From Marinomonas rhizomae (GTDB lineage: Bacteria > Pseudomonadota > Gammaproteobacteria > Pseudomonadales > Marinomonadaceae), in NCBI RefSeq assembly GCF_003315485.1, contig NZ_QNSE01000002.1, forward strand, positions 62,001 to 126,000: a DNA stretch of 64,000 nucleotides. The letters are read 5' to 3'. A program made the position numbers and the translations under genes. Below, one piece after another: positions 34,074-35,308 of this stretch (the first letter of the stretch is position 1; each line of letters opens with the position of its first letter). The notes under the pieces were generated by a model that saw nothing but the letters and a program-made list of their open reading frames with translations, made no database searches and was not told the origin of the DNA.

Positions 34074-34175
34074 ATGAGTAAGTTACAGCTTGTTATTGAA
34101 AAGGCAGTTGAGGTGCTAGTGCTTCTCAATGAGCTAATAGACAGCTTAACCGTCTTGATCCATTCGCTGGCTTAG
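34074..34175 (+). CDS. 33-residue hydrophobic/amphipathic peptide
   Basis: An AGAGG ribosome site (34062-34066) lies 7 nt before the ATG. The product begins MSKLQLVIEKAVEVLVLL and continues with Leu/Val/Ile every three to four residues and sparse charges. This pattern would form one amphipathic or membrane-associated helix. It is preceded by nested hairpins and followed by a terminator. Size, helix and structured leader recall type I toxin peptides, but no known toxin family was recognised, so function is open. Confidence 0.5.
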   Translation: MSKLQLVIEKAVEVLVLLNELIDSLTVLIHSLA

Positions 34176-34472: not shown

Positions 34473-35108
34473 TTAGGGTTTCACTTGCAAAAGCGCCTGC
34501 ACTTGATAATACGGGGTTGCCCAGTCTGATGTGTTTGAGCATCGAAAATAAATCAAACTCTCAATTTTATTCATGATCAAATTCAGGTCTTGTTTGAAGA
34601 TAGGTTCATGGTGAGCGATACGGTTACGTAGTTTTCGGATTTTATCTAAGTCGTTGAATATACTGGCTCGTAATTGGTCAACGGGCATATTGGCGGGGGC
34701 ATTTGGTAGTAGAGTATGTAGGTATGGTTGCCAAAATTGTTGATCGTATTTGGTTACAAACATTTGCTGCCAAAAATTGAAGGTCAGTTCTGGTATAACC
34801 TTGCTGGCTCTATTTCTTACATCTTGCTGATTACGTGCTTTAGTTAGCTCTGCTCTAAAGTACTTAGGTAGTGTGAGTTCTAGGCTCCGAGCCCATGGCC
34901 ATTGAGCATTAAATTGTGTTTCAAGTACCTGTGCGACAGTATTTCTTATGGTGATCTCACATAGATGCATTGGTACTAGTAAAGCGGCGGATATTTGACT
35001 GTTCCAAATGTACAGCTCTAAGGCTTTGGCTTGGTCTTGGTTCGTTGCATTTAGGTAAGTGCTCATACGGGAGGGGGAAAGTGTGTTAATAATGGGGGTG
35101 TGTGGCAC
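34473..35108 (-). CDS. Abi-family (Abi_2/COG4823-like) HEPN protein
   Basis: The 211-residue product resembles abortive-infection Abi-like proteins. It shows LSPSRMSTYLNATNQDQAKALELYIWN, the LCEITIRNTV helix, LTFNFWQQMF and the C-terminal KLRNRIAHHEPIF. The last contains the R-x4-H motif (Arg161 or Arg163 with His166/167) of HEPN ribonucleases. Such proteins usually act as phage-triggered RNases or as toxins held in check by a partner. The start is GTG 35108 with AAGGA 6-7 nt upstream. No protein antitoxin is adjacent. A divergent, terminator-ended small RNA starts about 118 bp upstream, and tiny coupled ORFs lie downstream. Family is fairly sure; defence activity is inferred. Confidence 0.85.
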   Translation of the reverse strand: MPHTPIINTLSPSRMSTYLNATNQDQAKALELYIWNSQISAALLVPMHLCEITIRNTVAQVLETQFNAQWPWARSLELTLPKYFRAELTKARNQQDVRNRASKVIPELTFNFWQQMFVTKYDQQFWQPYLHTLLPNAPANMPVDQLRASIFNDLDKIRKLRNRIAHHEPIFKQDLNLIMNKIESLIYFRCSNTSDWATPYYQVQALLQVKP

Positions 35109-35190
35109 TTTTTGTCCTTACTAAATGCTTGTATTCGCTTACTTTAACCGTATACATACTAAAAATACACAATTCCCATGGTTCACATAG

Positions 35191-35220
35191 TGGACGAATT
35201 GATGTTAATACTATTATACT
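35191..35220 (+). promoter_or_regulatory. Promoter of the divergent small RNA
   Basis: TGGACG (35191-35196) and TATACT (35215-35220) are separated by 18 bp, a fair -35/-10 pair. Transcription would start near 35226. Confidence 0.55.
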
Positions 35221-35225
35221 AAGGA

Positions 35226-35308
35226 TGTGAGCTATGGGGATCGTGGGTGAGAGCCTCCCTCGTAGACAAATGAAAAGAAGCCCGTGTCCTTGGATACGGG
35301 CTTTTTTT
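35226..35308 (+). ncRNA. Candidate small RNA (about 83 nt) divergent from the Abi/HEPN gene
   Basis: After the promoter, a first hairpin pairs CGtGGG (35242-35247) with CCCtCG (35257-35262), with a possible GAGA tetraloop (35249-35252) closed by GGU/GCC. A second, very stable hairpin pairs 35279-35288 with 35293-35302 and is followed by seven T, a textbook intrinsic terminator. No ORF with a ribosome site is inside. The unit starts 118 bp upstream of the HEPN gene on the other strand. Structured RNAs next to abi genes and RNA antitoxins of HEPN-like toxins are known classes; membership here is untested. Confidence 0.65.

Follow-up and report, generated by a model that had tools for sequence, protein, structure and literature searches.

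A divergent, covarying small RNA as the proposed antitoxin of PD-T4-5-like Abi_2/HEPN proteins

The pairing of a HEPN toxin with an RNA antitoxin is an established principle. AbiF is a HEPN toxin that is neutralised through direct binding of a noncoding RNA (PMC12373285), which bears out the precedent of structured RNAs near abiF genes named in an earlier note on the DNA studied here. The RNA serves as the inhibitor in AbiF pairs of both C. difficile (PMC12373285) and Prevotellaceae (PMC12737573), and the AbiD/F proteins are related to RNA-guided Cas13 (PMC12165695; PMC12737573). Another member of this company, the anti-phage gene PD-T4-5 of an E. coli plasmid (PDLC04038), provides defence through abortive infection and was judged to be toxin-antitoxin-like; as a single gene it fell outside the systems tested for an antitoxin, and the paper mentions no RNA partner (PMC9519451). 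HEPN RNase toxins with an R-x4-H motif are also found in HEPN-MNT (type VII) systems, where the antitoxin is an adjoining nucleotidyltransferase protein. In type III toxin-antitoxin systems, a small structured RNA holds a protein RNase, the systems are carried by plasmids or phages, and release of the RNase is triggered by phage.

Here we describe a locus in a 64,000-nucleotide stretch of the Marinomonas rhizomae genome (the window) at which a PD-T4-5-like Abi_2/HEPN protein gene is accompanied by a divergently encoded small RNA (Table 1). The RNA shows conserved, covarying helices beside homologues of the protein, and we propose it as a previously unreported antitoxin of the PD-T4-5 clade.

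Table 1. Positions of the protein gene and of the divergent RNA within the window.
Feature	Position	Strand	Basis or remark
PD-T4-5-like Abi_2/HEPN protein, putative RNase toxin/defence effector	34473..35108	-	211 aa, GTG start
HEPN catalytic motif RNRIAH, residues 161-166, R-x4-H	34611..34628	-	invariant residues in homologues
Sigma-70-like promoter of the RNA: TGGACG, 18-nt spacer, TATACT	35191..35220	+	9/12 matches, alone not significant
Divergent small RNA, ~83 nt, intrinsic terminator at its end	35226..35308	+	folding, homologue comparison
Conserved RNA core, 43 nt	35227..35269	+	covariance model R1 match, 44.5 bits
P1 5' strand CUAUGGGG	35232..35239	+	covariation
P2 hairpin, GAGA tetraloop (GGGU-GAGA-GCCU)	35245..35256	+	covariation; homologue loops include GAAA and UUCG
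P1 3' strand CCUCGUAG, continuing into conserved GACA (35265-35268)	35258..35265	+	covariation
Intrinsic terminator, hairpin and U-run	35278..35308	+	folding; same place in homologues

The reading frame of the abi gene is open, and the GTG at 35108 is taken as the correct start because homologues begin with MPxxxI..LS..R. Its product matches the Pfam profile Abi_2 (PF07751) with 28.9 bits, over the gathering score of 25.6. The R-x4-H HEPN motif reported in the earlier note stands: R161, N162 and H166 of R161-N-R-I-A-H166 are invariant in alignments of 20 and of 16 homologues, RNRIAH has the conserved R-x4-6-H of HEPN RNases, and RNase activity would be expected of the protein. The same note had called it a COG4823-type protein, an assignment that can be refined, for PADLOC places it nearer to PD-T4-5 (52.5 bits, 1.1e-14, in a partial alignment of protein residues 4-173 with profile positions 8-207 of 309) than to the AbiD/AbiF (COG4823) group, AbiD scoring just 2e-4. 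The closest named relative is found in M. hwangdonensis (69% identity), and plasmids are a frequent location of the homologues. As had been noticed before, no ORF for a protein antitoxin adjoins the abi gene at the locus.

An AlphaFold2 model of the protein is confident and all-helical (pLDDT 91.8), and the only solved structure that it clearly matches is that of the PbAbiF dimer in complex with a noncoding RNA, its antitoxin (8vz6; VIA Z 11.9, 197 residues, rmsd 3.2), followed by Csm6 with a Z of 6.8. Foldseek gave an E of only 0.011 to 8vz6, with 11% identity, and a PDB search with the protein sequence returned no significant match; the predicted model nevertheless has an AbiF-like fold.

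The RNA unit lies on the opposite strand to the abi gene and is divergent from it, starting 118 bp upstream. A promoter-like site, a hairpin with a GAGA loop and a terminator had all been proposed for this unit and are all present, but the hairpin is not the simple one first drawn: it is nested, with an outer helix P1 around P2. Although the full unit folds with -34.9 kcal/mol (z -4.8), the core without the terminator is not unusually stable (z -0.4), and since the terminator supplies almost all of the z-score, it is covariation, not energy, that argues for a structured core. A simple terminator scan missed the terminator in the window, which is evident by eye and in folding. The Rfam covariance search that the earlier note had suggested was run on the window and related loci, at gathering and permissive thresholds, and yielded terminator-driven noise only, so that the RNA matches no family. 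As a separate observation, the window also contains, at 34074-34175 on the plus strand, a small ORF for a hydrophobic peptide of 33 aa, MSKLQLVIEKAVEVLVLLNELIDSLTVLIHSLA, followed by a GCCACAC...GTGTGGC hairpin, which resembles a type I toxin peptide.

The same core, with the majority consensus ACTAGCCACGGGACTnGTnGGCGAAAGCCTCCCCCCGnGGACA, occurs on the divergent strand upstream of close homologues in Pseudomonadota and one genus of Actinomycetota. The hosts include Moraxella, Psychrobacter, Pantoea, Pseudoalteromonas, Marinobacter, Acinetobacter, E. coli, Klebsiella, Burkholderia, Xanthomonas, Zymomonas, Stutzerimonas and the actinomycete Rhodococcus. These cores mostly have a promoter-like TTGANN...TANNNT site before them and a terminator after them, and many homologues carry TTGNNN-N16-19-TANNNT at the position of the window promoter. 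Unconstrained folding of 20 sequences with RNAalifold recovered both P1 and P2, and 7 of the 9 pairs have changed in a compensatory way. Among these homologues, which are not phylogenetically independent, 93.5% of cells were paired against 80.2% after shuffling, 27 cells showed double changes against 7.4, and covariation was 0.517 against 0.254, values that none of 500 shuffles reached in any of the three cases; one more measure was reached in 3 of 500. The covariation signal was lost when the pairing partner was slid by 1-3 columns. In a second subgroup, from Marinomonas and Shewanella, the sequence is different and the shape is the same; its five distinct rows, few as they are, are 100% paired and show one compensatory pair in each helix, P1 and P2. 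A search for a conserved, covarying RNA at the same place beside homologues had been put forward earlier as a test, and the RNA has passed it. Comparative sequence evidence thus indicates that the RNA is real, and the idea of a dedicated divergent RNA partner for the Abi/HEPN protein gains support from both conservation and covariation, its action on the protein being a likely extension.

A covariance model of the core, R1, finds a single site in the genome that the window comes from and gives a match in seven of 398 genomes of the phylum, six of them strong and one marginal. The Abi protein adjoins the RNA in all six genomes with a strong match, a count that is partly circular, given that several of the matched sequences were used to build R1 and that the protein had led to most of the loci behind the model; genomes G1047 and G1128 lie outside the model, yet are close relatives of one model sequence. 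Counted from the protein side, a close homologue (E < 1e-37) is present in eight of the 398 genomes; six of these have an R1 match, and the remaining two have a related RNA variant recognisable by eye. The one marginal match (L067, 30 bits, E 0.004) is regarded as probable chance. Two orphan RNAs that lack an adjoining Abi protein were found in Marinomonas (L120:9906-9950, the same as L068, and L018:2509-2557). The former, in M. hwangdonensis, lies exactly between the genes that flank the module in the window; its terminator has decayed, the Abi gene is absent, and such a decaying RNA is as expected if a toxin may be lost before its antitoxin.

The association of such RNAs with Abi proteins spans the whole protein clade. 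Upstream of distant Abi_2 homologues (~20-35% identity) there are divergent, terminator-ended units of other sequences, often with the same nested P1/P2. A divergent terminator 60-320 bp upstream was scored at 46 of 58 dereplicated Abi_2 loci, as opposed to 16 of 196 control genes drawn from 11 stretches of 20 kb of the window's genome and from the window itself (p ~1e-25); a stricter count is 45 of 58, because the terminator counted at one locus (L083) sits in an inserted IS element. No divergent terminator was scored at L024, L058 and L093-L097. Some relatives use P1 itself as the terminator, and in a subfamily where the U-run follows P1 the consensus fold has 13 pairs, 8 of them with compensatory change. 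The window's genome holds a second system (L069, G000:C7:166561-167445), whose protein is PD-T4-5 proper (238 bits) and whose divergent RNA consists of two tandem copies of the hairpin motif, recalling the two-motif RCd22 of C. difficile. In four copies, from Marinomonas and Vibrio harveyi, P1 is kept despite differing sequences. On a Klebsiella plasmid (L083:1-2433), ISKpn28 lies between a near-reference PD-T4-5 (384 bits) and a divergent RNA of this kind; when the near-reference gene was used to search E. coli genomes, IS ends were all that came up.

We estimate at roughly 0.7 the probability that the locus encodes a HEPN RNase together with an RNA that neutralises it, operating as AbiF does with its noncoding RNA, that is, a type III-like toxin-antitoxin system for defence by abortive infection. 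An antitoxin role for the divergent RNA is the simplest reading because the protein has an AbiF-like fold, AbiF is neutralised by a noncoding RNA, and PD-T4-5 is toxin-antitoxin-like. The AbiF/AbiFr system of Prevotellaceae (8vz6) and the AbiF/RCd22 system of C. difficile phi027/phiC2 (RF03085) likewise have an Abi_2 protein with a HEPN motif, a single gene with a structured RNA of nested P1/P2 shape, no protein antitoxin, and an RNA in which one or two motif copies are possible, as in the second system of the window's genome. Observations that speak against this reading include the lack of an RF03085 match, an orientation opposite to that of the abiF leader, the unremarkable stability of the core by itself and the modest Foldseek E for 8vz6. 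The consensus of the AbiF RNA is a different one, and its internal loop has the long side 3', whereas that of the window RNA has it 5'. The RF03085 motif had no match in the window or related loci, and none above the cut-off in 49 genomes of the genus; near-matches of 34.9 bits, below the cut-off of 37, in three Marinomonas genomes (L076/G021, L077/G002 and L078/G038) lie away from the window gene and were set aside. While the AbiF RNA is a co-directional leader with readthrough (co-directional in phiC2), the window RNA is divergent and has its own putative promoter, and in PADLOC the window protein, unlike those of AbiF systems, scores as PD-T4-5 rather than AbiD.

PD-T4-5 itself belongs to the same protein clade, although the window protein is shorter (211 against ~309 aa) and a distant member, with 52.5 bits where closer proteins reach 227-384; its relatives analysed here carry a divergent RNA of which its description says nothing. 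The toxins of the classical type III systems (ToxIN, CptIN, TenpIN) have a fold unrelated to that of the window protein, and their RNA, unlike the window RNA, is an array of tandem repeats that precedes the toxin gene and runs in the same direction. The likeness to HEPN-MNT ends at the toxin, for the window locus has no adjoining nucleotidyltransferase.

Linkage and covariation would fit equally well if the RNA were an activating or sensing cofactor instead of an inhibitor, forming with the HEPN protein a ribonucleoprotein in which recognition of phage RNA, or of some other cue, depends on the RNA. The kinship of AbiD/F to RNA-guided Cas13 (PMC12165695; PMC12737573) lends this some appeal, and a structured RNA on a HEPN dimer could keep the enzyme ready. 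We nevertheless consider a cofactor role unlikely: the RNA core shows no evident variable stretch of the kind expected of a guide, the RNA is inhibitory in the nearest pairs that have been characterised (those of AbiF in C. difficile and Prevotellaceae), and an orphan RNA that outlasts its protein fits an antitoxin better.

Control at the level of the abi transcript, with the RNA base-pairing to the mRNA in type I-like fashion or divergent transcription interfering with the abi promoter, is less likely again. In several homologues the RNA starts no more than ~26 nt from the annotated start codon, where the mRNA leader and the RNA may overlap and antisense action or promoter interference is conceivable. 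In the window, by contrast, the RNA is directed away from the gene from a start 118 bp off, there is no overlap, and the cognate duplex energy is no better than that of non-cognate pairs; non-overlapping cognate pairs have no excess of complementarity (rank 0.80 in the window, 0.68 at L002 and 0.72 at L005), and covariation reflects selection on intramolecular helices. Antisense action is therefore unlikely for the window RNA. An overall advantage of cognate RNA-mRNA duplexes was traced to loci where the RNA start and the mRNA leader share DNA, and is an artefact. It is very improbable that the RNA is an unrelated trans-acting small RNA which merely sits beside the abi gene: the two protein-less copies in Marinomonas might suggest as much, but the strong matches in the 398 genomes, the orphan excepted, all adjoin an Abi_2 gene, the pairing is seen again on plasmids from a wide set of hosts, and the terminator has decayed in at least one orphan.

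Under the preferred reading, in which the RNA is the antitoxin, the Abi protein would be a HEPN RNase of helical fold that probably forms a homodimer, placing the RNRIAH motifs at the interface. The divergent RNA would be transcribed from its own promoter and fold into P1/P2, and, by analogy with AbiF, its binding may keep the protein inactive. Either a phage or the loss of the element would stop host transcription or remove the RNA; phage shut-off of transcription is a plausible trigger by analogy with type III systems. The longer-lived protein would then be set free to cleave RNA, halting both growth and phage. Transcription, RNA-protein binding, inhibition, RNase activity, phage defence and the trigger are all put forward here as predictions of this model.

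What is new is the RNA family, its divergent placement under a putative promoter of its own, and the inclusion of the PD-T4-5 clade; a limited literature search found no description of a divergent Abi RNA of this kind, and an earlier mention is possible. PD-T4-5 and its many relatives on plasmids carry annotations as solo defence genes or as 'hypothetical protein', and a toxin-antitoxin-like toxic gene that has no antitoxin is a puzzle for which a covarying divergent RNA, found beside almost all of them, offers a candidate. The puzzle becomes directly testable with two genes. We see about even odds that the whole PD-T4-5-like Abi_2 clade, in Pseudomonadota and Actinomycetota, forms a single large class, so far unrecognised, of HEPN toxins neutralised by divergently encoded RNAs. 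Its systems, on plasmids and chromosomes, would number in the hundreds, and their cognate RNAs, though diversifying fast, would share the nested P1/P2, some with P1 as the terminator and some with two motifs. The independent promoter of the RNA would let such an antitoxin sense phage shut-off of host transcription directly, unlike the AbiF leader with its readthrough. The findings add several RNA families absent from Rfam and give the AbiF/Cas13-related HEPN family a second lineage of RNA, which may be useful for understanding how HEPN enzymes came to use RNA.
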